Part shown: piece after piece, positions 20,643-51,142 of the stretch
How positions within the stretch are numbered: the first letter of the stretch is position 1
How the letters are laid out: each line of letters opens with the position of its first letter
Assembly (NCBI GenBank): GCA_003281795.1
Contig: QCAW01000008.1
Coordinates: forward strand, 1-51,142
DNA length: 51,142 bases
Direction of reading: 5' to 3'
Source of the DNA: Pelagibacteraceae bacterium AG-345-F21
GTDB taxonomy: Bacteria; Pseudomonadota; Alphaproteobacteria; Pelagibacterales; Pelagibacteraceae
Translations under genes and position numbers: made by a program
The notes under the pieces: model-generated
The model's database searches: none
Told to the model about the DNA's origin: nothing
Seen by the model: only the letters and a program-made list of their open reading frames with translations

Positions 20643-20765
20643 TTAAAGATAATTTAAACTAGATTTTTTTCTTTTAAAACTACCTTTTCCTTTTTTAGGT
20701 TTTATAACACGTTTTCGATATTTTTTAGTAAAAAGATCTAAAGCTATTTTATTCCTTTTTTTCAA
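20643..20765 (-). CDS. ArfA-like alternative ribosome-rescue small protein
   Basis: A 40-residue, strongly basic protein. The chain contains KRNKIALDLFTKKYRKRV followed by IKPKKGKGSFKRKKSS, matching the conserved core of the ArfA family (N-x-x-A-x-x-L-x-x-x-x-F/Y-R-x-R-V...K-K-G-K-G-S-Y/F-x-R-K). ArfA rescues ribosomes stalled on mRNAs lacking a stop codon by recruiting RF2. The only usable start in frame is TTG at 20765-20763, which overlaps the TGA of the upstream regulator gene (TTGA), a typical translational coupling arrangement. E. coli ArfA is longer; short alphaproteobacterial relatives are common. Identity rests on the motif alone. Confidence 0.65.
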   Translation of the reverse strand: MKKRNKIALDLFTKKYRKRVIKPKKGKGSFKRKKSSLNYL

Positions 20766-21391
20766 AACGAATATCCTGATTTATTGTTCAAAATAAAGTC
20801 TTCATCTTTAAATTTGGAATTTATTTTTTTTCTTAATCTGTAAATATGTGTTTCTACAGTGTGAGTATCCGCATCAGCTGAATATTTCCAAACATCTTCT
20901 AAAATTTTTTTTTTAGTTATAGATTTTTTATTACCTAAAAGTAACTCCAAAAGTTGAATTTCTTTTTCTGTTAATATTATAAACTTTTCATTTTTTAAAA
21001 GTTTTTTTTCATTTTTATCTAAAATGTAATTTTTTATTTTTATTGAAGAATTAAAATTAAAATTTTGTTTAGCGACTGAATTTTCAATTATTTGATTTAA
21101 ATCTTTAACACAAGTTGGCAGAGACAATTTTTCTGAAAAAAAACTGTAATTATTTTCCTTTAAATGGGAAGCTAAAATTTTTATTTTTTTTATTTTTTTT
21201 AAAAATACACTATATGAAGAATCATTTTTGAGTAGATCATGATGAATAAATAGGACATCAAAATTTTCAAAATGTTGTGCTTTAAAATCAGTATTAACTG
21301 TAATTAGATTAAAATTTAAATAATCTTTAAGTTCCTCTAATGAAATGTTAAAGTTTTTTGAACCAAAAGATAGAACATTTATTTTATGCAT
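20762..21391 (-). CDS. OmpR-type winged-helix regulator with degenerate receiver domain
   Basis: A 209-residue protein. The last 95 residues form a Trans_reg_C winged helix (ILTEKEIQLLELLLGNKKSITKKKILEDVWKY, then DTHTVETHIYRLRKKI, ending SGYSF). The first 110 residues have receiver-like hydrophobic strands but lack the acidic pair after strand 1 (NVLSFGSKN), and the usual phospho-Asp strand reads VLFIHHDLL. It is therefore unlikely to be phosphorylated in the normal way. No histidine kinase gene is nearby. Targets are unknown. Its ATG overlaps the ATG of the divergent transpeptidase gene, and its stop overlaps the ArfA-like start. Confidence 0.8.
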   Translation of the reverse strand: MHKINVLSFGSKNFNISLEELKDYLNFNLITVNTDFKAQHFENFDVLFIHHDLLKNDSSYSVFLKKIKKIKILASHLKENNYSFFSEKLSLPTCVKDLNQIIENSVAKQNFNFNSSIKIKNYILDKNEKKLLKNEKFIILTEKEIQLLELLLGNKKSITKKKILEDVWKYSADADTHTVETHIYRLRKKINSKFKDEDFILNNKSGYSF

Positions 21392-21877
21392 ATTTTAATT
21401 AAAAATAAAAATTTATACATTGGTCACTATAAAGTAAAATGTGCTGTTGGTAAAAGGGGAATTGGAGTCAAAAAAAAAGAAGGCGATAAAATTACACCAA
21501 AAGGAAAATTCAAGATAAAATATATTCTATATAGAAAAGATCGGGTAAAACGACTTAAGACTAATATTAAAAAGAAAATTATTAAGAGATCAATGGGTTG
21601 GTGTAACGATCCTAAATCAATTAACTATAATAGATTGATTAAATTTCCCAGCAATTTTGGAGCAGAGAAGCTTTTTAGAACCAATAATATTTATGACATT
21701 ATTTTAGTTTTAAATTTTAATTTCAATCCGACAATAAAAGGTAAAGGAAGTGCTATTTTCATACATGTGGCCAAAAATAAATATAACAGCACAGAAGGGT
21801 GTGTTGCTGTAAATAAAAAAAACATGAGAAATATATTAAAACTTATAAATAAAAAAACTTATGTTAAAATTAATTAA
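21386..21877 (+). CDS. YkuD-family L,D-transpeptidase
   Basis: A 163-residue protein that is essentially one YkuD domain. GRRG-like openings (VGKRGIGVKKKEGDKITPKGKFKI) lead to the active-site region GSAIFIHVAKNKYNSTEGCVAV, with the conserved His and catalytic Cys of the H-x13-T-x-G-C pattern. Such enzymes form 3-3 cross-links or attach proteins to peptidoglycan. There is no obvious signal peptide, as in the short YkuD proteins (YkuD/ErfK-like, DUF-type) of alphaproteobacteria. The start (ATG at 21386) is shared in the palindrome ATGCAT with the start of the regulator on the other strand. Confidence 0.85.
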   Translation: MHILIKNKNLYIGHYKVKCAVGKRGIGVKKKEGDKITPKGKFKIKYILYRKDRVKRLKTNIKKKIIKRSMGWCNDPKSINYNRLIKFPSNFGAEKLFRTNNIYDIILVLNFNFNPTIKGKGSAIFIHVAKNKYNSTEGCVAVNKKNMRNILKLINKKTYVKIN

Positions 21878-22524
21878 TTTCTTTTCCCAAATATAGAACT
21901 TCCGATTCTTACGTGAGTTGCTTTATAATTAATTGCTTCAATATAATCTGCTGACATCCCTATGCTTAAATTTTCCAGACCTAAAGAAGAATTTAGTTCA
22001 GAAATGCTTTTAAAGTATTTTTCTACTTTATCATCATTAGGAGGGATAGCCATCAAACCCACTACATTTAAATTTTTTTCCTTAGTACAATAATTAAAAA
22101 ATGCATCAACTTCATTATATGGAATTCCAGACTTTTGTTCTTCATTTCCAATATTAACTTGTATAAAATATTTTAAAGATTTTTTAATTGAATTTTGACT
22201 CTTTGATAAAACATCAGCGAGTTTTTGATTATCAACAGAATGAATGTAATCAAATATTTCTACGGCTTTTTTGACTTTGTTACTTTGTAATTTTCCGATC
22301 ATATGAAGTTTGATTTCAGGTTTTTGTTTTTTTATTTCTCTCCACTTTATTTCTGCTTCCTGAACTTTATTTTCTCCAAAGTGAATGTGATCATAATCGA
22401 TCAAAGGTCTAATATGTTCGATAGAAAAGGTTTTGCTTACTGCTATTATTTTGACCTTATTACCATTATTAATTTTTTCGATATTGGATTTTATTTTCTT
22501 AAATCTTTCAATTATGATGTTCAT
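21874..22524 (-). CDS. YggS-family pyridoxal phosphate homeostasis protein
   Basis: A 216-residue single-domain PLP-binding TIM barrel. KIIAVSKTFSIEHIRPLI near 24-41 has the PLP lysine, then HFGENKVQEAEIKW, LHMIGKLQSNKVKK, VNIGNEEQKSG and LSIGMSADYIEAI complete the family signature. YggS/PROSC proteins buffer free PLP and influence amino-acid metabolism. It converges with the transpeptidase gene (4-nt overlap) and its ATG abuts that of the divergent ThiE-like gene (CATATG at 22522-22527). Confidence 0.94.
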   Translation of the reverse strand: MNIIIERFKKIKSNIEKINNGNKVKIIAVSKTFSIEHIRPLIDYDHIHFGENKVQEAEIKWREIKKQKPEIKLHMIGKLQSNKVKKAVEIFDYIHSVDNQKLADVLSKSQNSIKKSLKYFIQVNIGNEEQKSGIPYNEVDAFFNYCTKEKNLNVVGLMAIPPNDDKVEKYFKSISELNSSLGLENLSIGMSADYIEAINYKATHVRIGSSIFGKRN

Positions 22525-23097
22525 ATGTTTATTCTTAAAAAAAAATATTTTCTTATAATAGAAAGTATCAAAGATATTGATTTAAGTAATATAAAAAAAA
22601 TCAATAAATTTAATATTATTTATAGAAATAAATACCTAAAGGACAATCTAAATGAAATTGTAAGATTTAGAAAGATGTGTAATAGCAAAAAAATAGGCTT
22701 TTTTATTTCTAACAGAATCAAATTAGCTCACACATTAAAAGCAGATGGAGTTTATATCTCAGCAAATAATAATAATCTTGGCTTAGTTCATTTAAAATAC
22801 ACAAATTTTAAAGTTATTGGAGCAGCACATAATTTAAAAGAGTTAAAAATAAAAATATTACAAGGGTGCTCTTTTATACTTTATTCGCGTTTATTTAAAA
22901 CGTCCTATAAATTTAAAAAGGGACATTTAGGAATATTAAGATTTAATCAAATTTGTAAATCTTTAAAAAGAAACTTAGTTCCTCTTGGTGGTATTTCACT
23001 TTCAAATTTAAATAAACTAAAACTTATTAATTCAGAATCTTTCGCGATTTTGTCTGCTGTAAAAAAAAAGCCGGCTATAATTAGCCGGCTTTTTTAA
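22525..23097 (+). CDS. ThiE/TenI-family thiamine phosphate synthase-like protein
   Basis: 190 residues from the ATG at 22525 (MFILKKKYFLII); the longer reading frame upstream runs through yggS and is not supported. It has a TIM-barrel pattern with ADGVYISANN, VIGAAHNLKELK, a loop YSRLFKTSYKFKKGHLG aligned to the P-F-T-x-S-x-P-G-x-x-x-LG loop of ThiE, and PLGGISLSNL for phosphate binding. Several active-site residues of true thiamine phosphate synthase are changed, so it may be a TenI-like or altered enzyme. The last codons run through the hairpin of the terminator that follows. Confidence 0.7.
   Translation: MFILKKKYFLIIESIKDIDLSNIKKINKFNIIYRNKYLKDNLNEIVRFRKMCNSKKIGFFISNRIKLAHTLKADGVYISANNNNLGLVHLKYTNFKVIGAAHNLKELKIKILQGCSFILYSRLFKTSYKFKKGHLGILRFNQICKSLKRNLVPLGGISLSNLNKLKLINSESFAILSAVKKKPAIISRLF
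23064..23095. terminator. Bidirectional intrinsic terminator (ThiE-like gene and porin gene)
   Basis: A perfect inverted repeat, GCCGGCTA (23070-23077) and TAGCCGGC (23082-23089), with a TAAT loop. It is flanked by a run of nine A on the left (23061-23069) and six T on the right (23090-23095), so it can terminate transcripts from either side: the ThiE-like gene (+) and the porin gene (-, stop at 23118). It stands out as a GC-rich hairpin in very AT-rich DNA. The stem lies inside the last codons of the ThiE-like gene. Confidence 0.9.
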
Positions 23098-48892: not shown

Positions 48893-49473
48893 TTCCCGAG
48901 CATATTAATATAGTTGATAATTTGTTTCATAGGCAAACCCATAATTGAGTCTACATCTCCCTTTATGTATTCAAATAACCCTAGACCATCTGCTTCAACT
49001 TGATAAACCCCATAAGACAGCAGTGTTTCAGTTTTGACTTTGCTTAAATATTGCTTTAACTCCATTTCAGAAAATTTTTTCATTTTTAATTCAGATTTAT
49101 CTGATTGATTCCAAATCATAGCCCCATTTTTTGAAATACAAACAGAACTAATTAAATAATGTTTTAAACCATTTAACCTTTTTAATATATCGAGCGCTTC
49201 TTCTCTAGACTTTGGTTTATTTATTAAATTATCATCTAAAGAAATTACGCTATCTGCTCCTAAGACCAGTCTATCAGGATTTTTGTTGCTTACTTTAATA
49301 GATTTAAGTTCTGCTAAATTCTTAGAAATAATTAATGGGTTAGCTCCTTCAGACAAAAGGGCTATTTTTACCTCCTCCTCATCAACGTTTGAAACGATTA
49401 CTTCAGACTCGATATTGTGTTTATCGAGTATTTGTTTTCTTACTCCACTGGCTGAAGCTAAAATAATTTTCAT
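48889..49473 (-). CDS. Maf-family nucleotide pyrophosphatase
   Basis: A 194-residue Maf protein. It opens IILASASGVRKQILDKHNIE (S-x-S-x-x-R), has LVLGADSVISLDDNLINKPKS with the catalytic Asp, and SYGVYQVEADGLGLFEYIKGD near the C-terminus. Maf enzymes hydrolyse non-canonical or excess nucleoside triphosphates (dTTP, UTP). The Maf-AroE-CoaE-DnaQ order beside the origin is conserved in alphaproteobacteria. Confidence 0.94.
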   Translation of the reverse strand: MKIILASASGVRKQILDKHNIESEVIVSNVDEEEVKIALLSEGANPLIISKNLAELKSIKVSNKNPDRLVLGADSVISLDDNLINKPKSREEALDILKRLNGLKHYLISSVCISKNGAMIWNQSDKSELKMKKFSEMELKQYLSKVKTETLLSYGVYQVEADGLGLFEYIKGDVDSIMGLPMKQIINYINMLGK

Positions 49474-50291
49474 TTAATTTTTTTTATCTCATAAATCTTT
49501 AAAATTGAGGCAGCCGTCTCTTCAACTGATTTCCTGGTCACATCAATTGTAGGCCAATTATATTTTTTAAATAACTTTTTTGAATTTTGTAATTCTTCAT
49601 TTATAAAATTCAGATCTGTATATTCTTTAATATTGTTATCATTCATTATTGCTATTCGATTTCTTCTTATATCTGCTAGCCTATCTGGGTCTGCTACTAA
49701 TCCAATAACACATATTTTATTTTCTGAGGATTTTAAAATTTCTGGAATTTTTTGATCCATAACCAATGGAATGTTTGCTGTTTTAAAGCCTCGATTGGCC
49801 AGATAAATTGAAGTTGGTGTTTTGCTAGTTCTGCTTACTCCTAAAAGTACTATGTCGGAGTTTTTTATATCATTAATTTTTTTTCCATCGTCATGGGACA
49901 TTGTAAACTGTATTGCTTCAATTCTTTTATAATAATCATCATCTAAAACATGTTGAGCGCTAGGTTTGTGAATTGCTTTTTGATTAAGTAATTTTGAGAA
50001 ACTTAATATCAAGTTACCCAACACCCCGAAACAAGGAACATTATTTTTGTCACTTAACTGAGTAATGTATTTGGCCAATTTTGTTTCAACAATAGTGTAT
50101 AATATTATTACATTTTCCTTTTTCTTGCACTCATTTATAATTTTATCAATTTGTTGTTGGGTTCTTATAAAAGCAAACTCTTTCTTTATATACTCAAAGC
50201 TAGAAAATTGAGATTTTAAAGATAAAAAAATTCTATCAAGGGTTTCCCCTGTGGAGTCTGAAACAAGATATACATTGTATTTTCCGTTCAT
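49470..50291 (-). CDS. DUF299 pyruvate,phosphate dikinase/PEP synthase regulatory protein (RP001-type)
   Basis: A 273-residue bifunctional kinase/pyrophosphorylase of the PPDK/PEPS regulatory family. YLVSDSTGETLDRI opens it and the P-loop-like LLGVSRTSKTPTSIYLANRG is near 150-170; IGLVADPDRLADIRRNR follows. It phosphorylates and dephosphorylates a threonine on PPDK or PEP synthase to switch gluconeogenesis. As Rickettsia RP001 and its Caulobacter relative, this gene borders oriC opposite hemE. It is first of the maf-aroE-coaE-dnaQ run. Confidence 0.93.
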   Translation of the reverse strand: MNGKYNVYLVSDSTGETLDRIFLSLKSQFSSFEYIKKEFAFIRTQQQIDKIINECKKKENVIILYTIVETKLAKYITQLSDKNNVPCFGVLGNLILSFSKLLNQKAIHKPSAQHVLDDDYYKRIEAIQFTMSHDDGKKINDIKNSDIVLLGVSRTSKTPTSIYLANRGFKTANIPLVMDQKIPEILKSSENKICVIGLVADPDRLADIRRNRIAIMNDNNIKEYTDLNFINEELQNSKKLFKKYNWPTIDVTRKSVEETAASILKIYEIKKIK

Positions 50292-50562
50292 ATATTTGTT
50301 AATAATTTCTTAACAAGTTATGTTTTTACATTATTTTTACTTTTTTTAAAAAAGAGCTGACAATAGTTAACATTATTTAAACATTTTATTCGATGTTAAT
50401 AATGTTGTTTTACTAATGTTTATAAGATTAATAAAGTCAGTAAATTAAGTATTTTTTAAAAAAGTTATTATCTAAAACATGTATAAAATATGTATAAAAA
50501 GTTATATAAGCTTTTCACAGACCCTATAGGTAAAACAATACTTCTAAAAAAAATTTATTTAT
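50292..50562. other. Predicted chromosomal replication origin (oriC) between DUF299 and hemE
   Basis: A 271-bp non-coding, extremely AT-rich gap, the longest in the window, with both flanking genes transcribed away from it. Four 9-mers match the DnaA-box consensus TTWTNCACA at 8 of 9 positions: TGTTAATAA at 50297-50305 and 50394-50402, TGTTTATAA at 50417-50425 (all minus-strand boxes) and CTTTTCACA at 50511-50519. TTAA-N7-TTAA, the CtrA pattern, is at 50299-50313 and overlaps the first box. A/T runs (around 50336-50352) could serve as an unwinding element. In Caulobacter and Rickettsia oriC lies in exactly this interval. The hemE promoter must also be here. Confidence 0.7.
50479..50499. repeat. 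Tandem 10-mer ATGTATAAAA repeated twice in the predicted origin
   Basis: ATGTATAAAA occurs at 50479-50488 and again at 50490-50499, an 11-base period close to one helical turn. It lies between the DnaA-box-like elements at 50417 and 50511. It may be a protein-binding pair or part of the hemE promoter (TATAAA). Confidence 0.5.
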
Positions 50563-51142
50563 ATGAGTAATCTTAAAAAAGTTCTTATTAATAAAGTTTC
50601 TTGTAAATCTATCTGGTTTATGAGACAAGCAGGTCGCTACTTGCCAGAATTTAGAAAAATAAGATCTCAAAATACAAATTTCATAAAACTTTGCCTTAAT
50701 AGTCAATTAAGTTCTGAAATAACTTTACAGCCTATCAAAAGATTTGAAATGGACTCTGCAATTATCTTTTCGGACATCTTAATGACACCATATGCTTTAG
50801 GACAGGATGTAAAATTTATAAAAAACAAAGGCCCCGAGCTTAGTGATTTTAATATTGAAAAATTTTTAGATAAAACCAAAGACAACTTTAATCATACACT
50901 AAATCCTATTTATAAAGCTATCGAAATAACAAAGAAAAATTTAGATAAAAATAAATCTCTCATAGGTTTTGTCGGAGCTCCTTGGACTTTATTAGTTTAT
51001 ATGTTCAATATTAAAAAAAATAAAACGCAAATAGACTTAGATAAATTTAATAATATAAATAAAAAAGTAAATATAGTTTTAAATAAATTAATAGATTTTT
51101 TATGCGTCCATATAGAAAATCAAATTGATGCTGGGGCGGATG
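50563..51142 (+). CDS. hemE: Uroporphyrinogen decarboxylase HemE (5' part, runs off the window)
   Basis: The first 193 codons of hemE from the ATG at 50563; the frame is open to the window end. SIWFMRQAGRYLPEFRKIR near 17-35 is the substrate-binding signature with the catalytic-site Arg residues, SDILMTPYALGQDVKF near 68-83 has the catalytic Asp, and IGFVGAPWTLLVYMF matches the family G-F-x-G-x-P-W-T. It decarboxylates uroporphyrinogen III in haem synthesis. About 150 residues are missing beyond the edge. Confidence 0.95.
   Translation, partial: MSNLKKVLINKVSCKSIWFMRQAGRYLPEFRKIRSQNTNFIKLCLNSQLSSEITLQPIKRFEMDSAIIFSDILMTPYALGQDVKFIKNKGPELSDFNIEKFLDKTKDNFNHTLNPIYKAIEITKKNLDKNKSLIGFVGAPWTLLVYMFNIKKNKTQIDLDKFNNINKKVNIVLNKLIDFLCVHIENQIDAGAD

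Follow-up and report, generated by a model that had tools for sequence, protein, structure and literature searches.

A predicted chromosomal replication origin with A/T-shifted DnaA-like boxes between the DUF299 and hemE genes of SAR11 bacteria

Background

SAR11 is among the most abundant groups of marine bacteria, and a defined origin of replication in this group would make its growth readable from coverage slopes with the correct peak. The sequence analyzed here (the window) is one entire contig of 51,142 bp from a 975-kb genome that consists of 31 unordered contigs, is 85% complete and has, in a scan of named genomes, Pelagibacteraceae (SAR11) as its closest named relatives. At positions 50292-50562 it contains a gap bordered by genes of the COG1806 (DUF299) and hemE families, which, according to excerpts of PMC1914354, border both the Caulobacter origin Cori and the predicted origin of Rickettsia. 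Does this gap, then, serve as the oriC of a SAR11 chromosome? Among the matches listed from the open-licence literature, none described a SAR11 oriC sequence in its title, the opening of its abstract or the excerpts consulted. We argue that the gap very probably is this origin, as predicted from sequence, because its neighbors are conserved, its length is near-constant, its DnaA-like boxes are conserved and phased, and the strand skew of some related single-contig genomes points to it.

Gene neighborhood and conservation of the gap

The left border is formed by a DUF299/Kinase-PPPase gene of the RP001 type (49470-50291, minus strand; PF03618, 1.8e-89) and the right border by the 5' part of hemE (50563-51142, plus strand; URO-D, PF01208, 2.2e-47), which is truncated by the contig end at 51142. 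These Pfam matches bear out the arrangement and boundaries given in the original prediction, namely divergent genes flanking a gap of 271 bp (GC 0.17), and the ORFs across the window confirm that this gap is its longest non-coding stretch. A 425-bp stretch at 21878-22302 was considered as a longer non-coding region and ruled out, since it lies inside a 216-aa ORF (21874-22524, minus strand); in 24 of 31 same-genus genomes, counting the window's own, at least 398 bases of the stretch find a match. The same ORF overlaps by 222 nt with a second long ORF on the opposite strand (22303-23097, plus strand). Beyond DUF299 lie maf, aroE, coaE and a gene for a dnaQ-type exonuclease, followed by secB, fxsA, Tim44-like and Smr genes. 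In part, this gene order is that of Caulobacter. The whole window is devoid of tRNA genes, and a comparison of positions 50200-50700 with a plasmid collection returned no match.

DUF299 was found in 46 of 61 same-genus genomes searched, and in all of the best 30 loci taken from these, the window's included, hemE lies across a gap of 268-275 bp; hemE of the other 29 loci is 61-75% identical to that of the window. Among named genomes, a scan turned up 135 relatives, and the 80 best loci were retained. In 79 of them DUF299 and hemE are both present, separated by 263-285 bp; the remaining locus (L057) was left out, its contig breaking off 57 bases from DUF299. The window and the 79 named loci together make up the 80-locus set used below. 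Some of the 79 perhaps come from a sister genus, and there is at least some overlap in genomes with the same-genus set. The length of 271 bp, very small for an origin according to the original prediction, is small yet usual for this group. Seven other genera contributed 20 loci, and 18 of these share the order DUF299-gap-hemE; in the remaining pair, both from one genus (g6), rho stands beside the gap in place of hemE, 353 bp from DUF299. In these two genomes (L123 and L124) hemE, with a lower score, is found at 412 or 718 kb. A further oddity is the hemE of a single-contig relative (G070:C1:358209-359176), which is split over two frames in a frameshift-like manner, with stops in the second piece.

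An array of A/T-shifted DnaA-like boxes

The original prediction had counted four 9-mers matching TTWTNCACA at 8 of 9 positions. Such matches are indeed present, but their number is seven at 8/9 or better, against a mean of 1.50 in 2000 dinucleotide shuffles (P = 0.0005). Over the window as a whole they occur at the level of chance (204 versus 214 expected), and hence the non-random part is their clustering in the gap. Full 9/9 matches to canonical TTWTNCACA, which are usual but not required for an alphaproteobacterial hemE/COG1806 oriC, number zero in the window's gap and 9 in total over the 80 gaps. The working consensus of the putative boxes is instead TTATNAACA, an A/T-shifted form in which C at position 6 is replaced by A. 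Compared with the expectation from about 0.94 Mb of flanking sequence, the 80 gaps contain TTATNAACA at 1.99 per gap (0.030 expected), TTWTNNACA at 3.42 (0.23 expected) and canonical TTATNCACA at 0.07 (0.006 expected). Within the 451 kb of the window's own genome that were examined, the gap holds five TTWTNNACA and any other 271-bp stretch at most three; with the narrower TTATNNACA the gap holds three and is tied by two other places, and for canonical TTWTNCACA the gap has none, as against two apiece at three other 271-bp places. All 20 other-genus loci contain TTATNAACA, and 7 of them TTATNCACA, in the 290 nt that follow the DUF299 start; the box shift is thus family-wide. GANTC (CcrM) sites number zero in the window's gap and 0.06 per gap over the 80 gaps, and there is therefore no methylation cluster.

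Reading from left to right, the predicted array begins with TTATTAACA at the left edge (50297-50305, minus strand), whose ACA core is kept in 80/80 loci. It continues with three direct boxes on the plus strand: the degenerate GAGCTGACA (50354-50362; ACA in 75/80), TAGTTAACA (50364-50372; 80/80) and ATTTAAACA (50375-50383; 79/80). These three are phased, the first two being 10 bp apart in 76 loci and 11 bp in four, and the second and third 11 bp apart in all 80. Opposed to them on the minus strand is a further copy of TTATTAACA (50394-50402; ACA in 79/80), followed on the same strand by TTATAAACA (50417-50425; ACA in 57/80, TTATAAACA itself in 50, an indel in 5 rows) and by a tandem pair of TTTTATACA at 50480-50488 (ACA in 57/80; an indel in 21 rows) and 50491-50499 (ACA in 64/80). 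The last box, CTTTTCACA (50511-50519, plus strand), retains ACA in all 80 loci and is the anchor of a putative unwinding module.

The original prediction had staked itself on conservation of its 9-mers in relatives and left to an alignment across SAR11 which of them are conserved; over the 80 loci the boxes prove to be conserved well above the rest of the gap. Pairwise identity is 0.795 in the boxes, 0.533 in the remaining gap and 0.515-0.525 at third codon positions, a contrast between boxes and rest that is partly circular because the boxes were picked after the alignment had been viewed. In the same set the box register ranks first among 271 circular shifts.

A box, spacer and trio-like tract on the hemE side

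The anchor box is followed in the window by a 4-nt spacer, GACC (50520-50523, plus strand), a DnaA-trio-like tract in eroded form (50524-50538, plus strand; CTA TAG GTA AAA CAA) and an A/T-rich stretch of GC 0.08 (50539-50562) that is likely to be part of the unwinding element. The tract belongs to a family-wide 3-base period. In the 20 other-genus loci, with box ends set from motifs judged by eye, T occupies positions 6, 9, 12, 15 and 18 after the last box in 85, 70, 70, 65 and 85% of cases and the remaining positions from 5 to 19 in 0-15%, and A is found at positions 10, 16 and 19 in 20/20. This periodicity of T and A appears to be the DnaA-trio pattern as read on the box strand. For the 80-locus set, whose register comes from the alignment alone, the figures for T at the same five positions are 90, 70, 38, 35 and 62%; in trios three and four it has mostly been lost.

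A basal unwinding system (BUS) is defined by a DnaA box within 16 bp of at least three trios (3'-NAN-5'). The trio runs of the 80 loci are of length 0 in 8 loci, 1 in 22, 2 in 33, 3 in 9, 4 in 3, 5 in 3 and 7 in 2; thus 63 loci have a run of two or fewer, and that of the window is a single trio. Runs of at least three behind a 4-nt spacer, the only spacer length scored, are present in 7/20 other-genus loci and 17/80 of the main set; one relative, L116, has six trios. As stated in parts of PMC8287927, the trio search reported there demanded three trios, and trios lacking the middle adenine were suspected to exist. The candidate module of box, 4-nt spacer and trio-like tract on the hemE side is thus family-wide, eroded near the window and weak in the window itself.

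Strand skew and the position of dnaA

Skew was sampled every 58-65 kb in single-contig relatives, and 80 trial origins were compared for strand-adjusted GC3 skew and gene co-orientation. In the genome G188 the cumulative minimum lies at the 360-kb sample and the maximum at 949 kb, the candidate gap being at 335.5 kb; the two arms differ in plain skew (p = 0.0091), contrast is highest when the origin is placed at 310-360 kb, and the gap ranks 9 of 80 by strand-adjusted skew (p = 0.033) and 1 of 80 by co-orientation. For G065 the arms likewise differ in plain skew (p = 0.031; best trial origins at 1030-1059 kb, candidate at 1090 kb), and the gap is at rank 1 of 80 by strand-adjusted GC3 skew (p = 3.1e-06) and at rank 13 by co-orientation. 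The corresponding ranks are 1 (p = 0.26) and 5 in G070, and 10 (p = 0.045) and 41 in G068, the plain skew of which gives no difference between arms (p = 0.62). Sampled skew accordingly supports the gap in G188 and G065, weakly in G070 and barely in G068. The near relatives of the window are less accommodating: plain skew and gene co-orientation (about 60%) have the expected sign in the long contigs of G199, G200 and G202, but once adjusted for gene strand the skew changes sign in G199 (p = 0.015) and G200 (p = 0.058), and it is flat in G202 (p = 0.16). This genuinely weakens the argument from skew for the group to which the window belongs. The skew minimum that the original prediction expected at the gap is found there, within about one sampling step, in G188 and G065; in G068, with its minimum at the last sample, and in the near relatives, with that of G199 at 431 kb (candidate at 286.6 kb), skew gives mixed signals on the place.

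The main competing explanation is that the gap is a mere divergent promoter or leader region of DUF299 and hemE, its repeats being bound by a transcription factor, with the origin lying elsewhere, for instance near dnaA. The border genes do diverge, and the gap has 7 promoter-like matches compared with 3.4 (sd 1.8) in shuffles. Moreover, in 13 genomes with both placed on one contig, the gap and dnaA are 61-87 kb apart. This is about one sampling step, so that sampled skew separates the two loosely and gives the gap no more than a mild preference. For G188 the cumulative minimum falls between the gap (335.5 kb) and dnaA (400 kb), with equal strand-adjusted contrast for both; the plain contrast in G188 (0.128 for the gap, 0.117 for dnaA) and the strand-adjusted contrast in G065 (0.127 and 0.105) are slightly better at the gap. 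It speaks against this explanation that the box array is present where hemE is not: in G068 and G069, which have rho at this place, the gap contains 3 TTWTNNACA each, and the anchor box is 226 nt from DUF299, as compared with 220-242 nt in the other 18 other-genus loci. Upstream of the window genome's own dnaA, no comparable box array was seen by eye. Rfam returned no match for positions 49900-50900 (up to E = 1), which also counts against it, and none for the whole window (at the gathering score). We consider this explanation very unlikely. The position has a practical side, in that GRiD, as described in parts of PMC7852909, puts dnaA at the origin; should the gap be the origin, that placement would miss it by 61-87 kb in the 13 SAR11 genomes measured.

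DnaA and the question of CtrA

The DnaA of the window's genome retains the helix-turn-helix motifs RRSR and RDHTT, and the DNA-contact motifs of the protein look conserved despite the shifted boxes. It keeps the residues matching Ile190, Ile193, Lys222 and Glu228 of Bacillus subtilis DnaA and differs from it in Lys for Arg202 and Tyr for Asn187; the roles of these domain III residues are treated in sections of PMC10721633. The latter substitution was discarded as a DnaA change behind the box shift: Tyr is present at this position in 16/16 SAR11 DnaA proteins compared and, being common to all, cannot account for trios having been lost in a single group. Among the SAR11 DnaA proteins compared, the Asn preceding RDHTT showed no correlation with box type.

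The combination of boxes lacking C at position 6 with seemingly unchanged RRSR and RDHTT motifs could also mean that the origin depends on an additional protein and not on DnaA alone. The boxes nevertheless remain DnaA-box-like (TTAT..ACA), and canonical TTATNCACA also occurs in 7 of the 20 other-genus origins, making such a dependence very improbable in our estimate.

The original prediction further read a TTAA-N7-TTAA motif (50299-50313) as a CtrA-type site overlapping a DnaA box. The motif and its overlap are real, its left half being part of the conserved left box, and a second copy at 50445-50459 brings the number in the gap to two, against 0.33 expected (P = 0.047); the window as a whole has 23 against 17 expected. 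A CtrA role, by contrast, was dropped, and the motif is not taken as a CtrA site: it is kept at its place in 33/80 loci (with any such motif in 45/80 gaps), 0/11 SAR11 genomes have a protein over the cut-off of the NCBIfam CtrA model (Rhodobacter-type; best score 148 of 350 bits), as against 1/14 control genomes, all six OmpR-type regulators scanned in three genomes score higher with non-CtrA models, and the text of PMC2877005, as excerpted, states that no ctrA ortholog was found in Pelagibacter. A Caulobacter-like origin at which CtrA and DnaA compete for this motif is therefore extremely improbable. At 20762-21391 (minus strand), about 28 kb away from DUF299, the window does encode a protein of 209 aa whose C-terminus is a DNA-binding domain of the OmpR type (PF00486 only) and which has no Pfam receiver domain; frames of 199-244 aa with weak OmpR-type matches lie 19-28 kb from DUF299 in G188, G075, G070, G068, G065, G035, G015 and G012, and one such match lies 42 kb away in G063.

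Predicted mechanism and relation to known origins

The place of the SAR11 origin in the DUF299-hemE gap is well supported, and for its mechanism we infer DnaA binding, a melting site and initiation at the gap. ATP-DnaA would load on the A/T-shifted boxes (consensus TTATNAACA), and an oligomer could form on the three direct boxes, which follow one another at roughly one helical turn and face inverted boxes, with the tandem inverted pair further right. The last box (50511-50519), the spacer and the trio-like tract may then steer DnaA onto one strand, such that melting would start in the A/T-rich stretch just ahead of hemE, where the helicase would be loaded.

The gap is thus predicted to be an oriC of the established hemE/COG1806 type, from which it appears to depart in its shifted box alphabet, in the lack of a detected CtrA and in its eroding trio tract. 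Border genes, an A/T-rich region and DnaA boxes are shared with Cori of Caulobacter crescentus (hemE-CC_0001/COG1806), as described in excerpts of PMC1914354, whereas the window's gap has no canonical boxes and no CtrA was found. The same excerpts give identical borders (hemE-COG1806) and a high A/T content (82% in two species) for the predicted Rickettsia origin; its length is 383-395 bp in three table rows, compared with 271 bp in the window, and the SAR11 gap is also shorter than the >400 bp given there for Caulobacter and R. prowazekii. At its right end the gap resembles the basal unwinding system of B. subtilis, with a box, a short spacer and a 3-base-periodic tract of equal polarity; the GC-rich part of BUS spacers is 4 bp on average in the passages of PMC8287927 consulted. 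It differs from B. subtilis in the sequence of the anchor box and in the partial loss of trios in the loci nearest the window.

Taken further, these departures might mean that a non-canonical box alphabet (TTATNAACA, C to A at position 6) has been adopted throughout the SAR11 origins with no matching change in the DNA-contact motifs of DnaA, and that replication is gated by an array of mostly weak sites of the ATP-DnaA type without CtrA, while in the loci nearest the window the trio tract is eroding as well, trios three and four having A for T on the box strand (that is, T for the central adenine on the trio strand). We put this forward tentatively, as a proposal that falls somewhat short of an even chance. 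The SAR11 gap would nonetheless be a naturally occurring origin that lacks both canonical boxes and CtrA, and the graded series of DnaA-trio loss among the relatives of the window is a test bed for the unwinding model.
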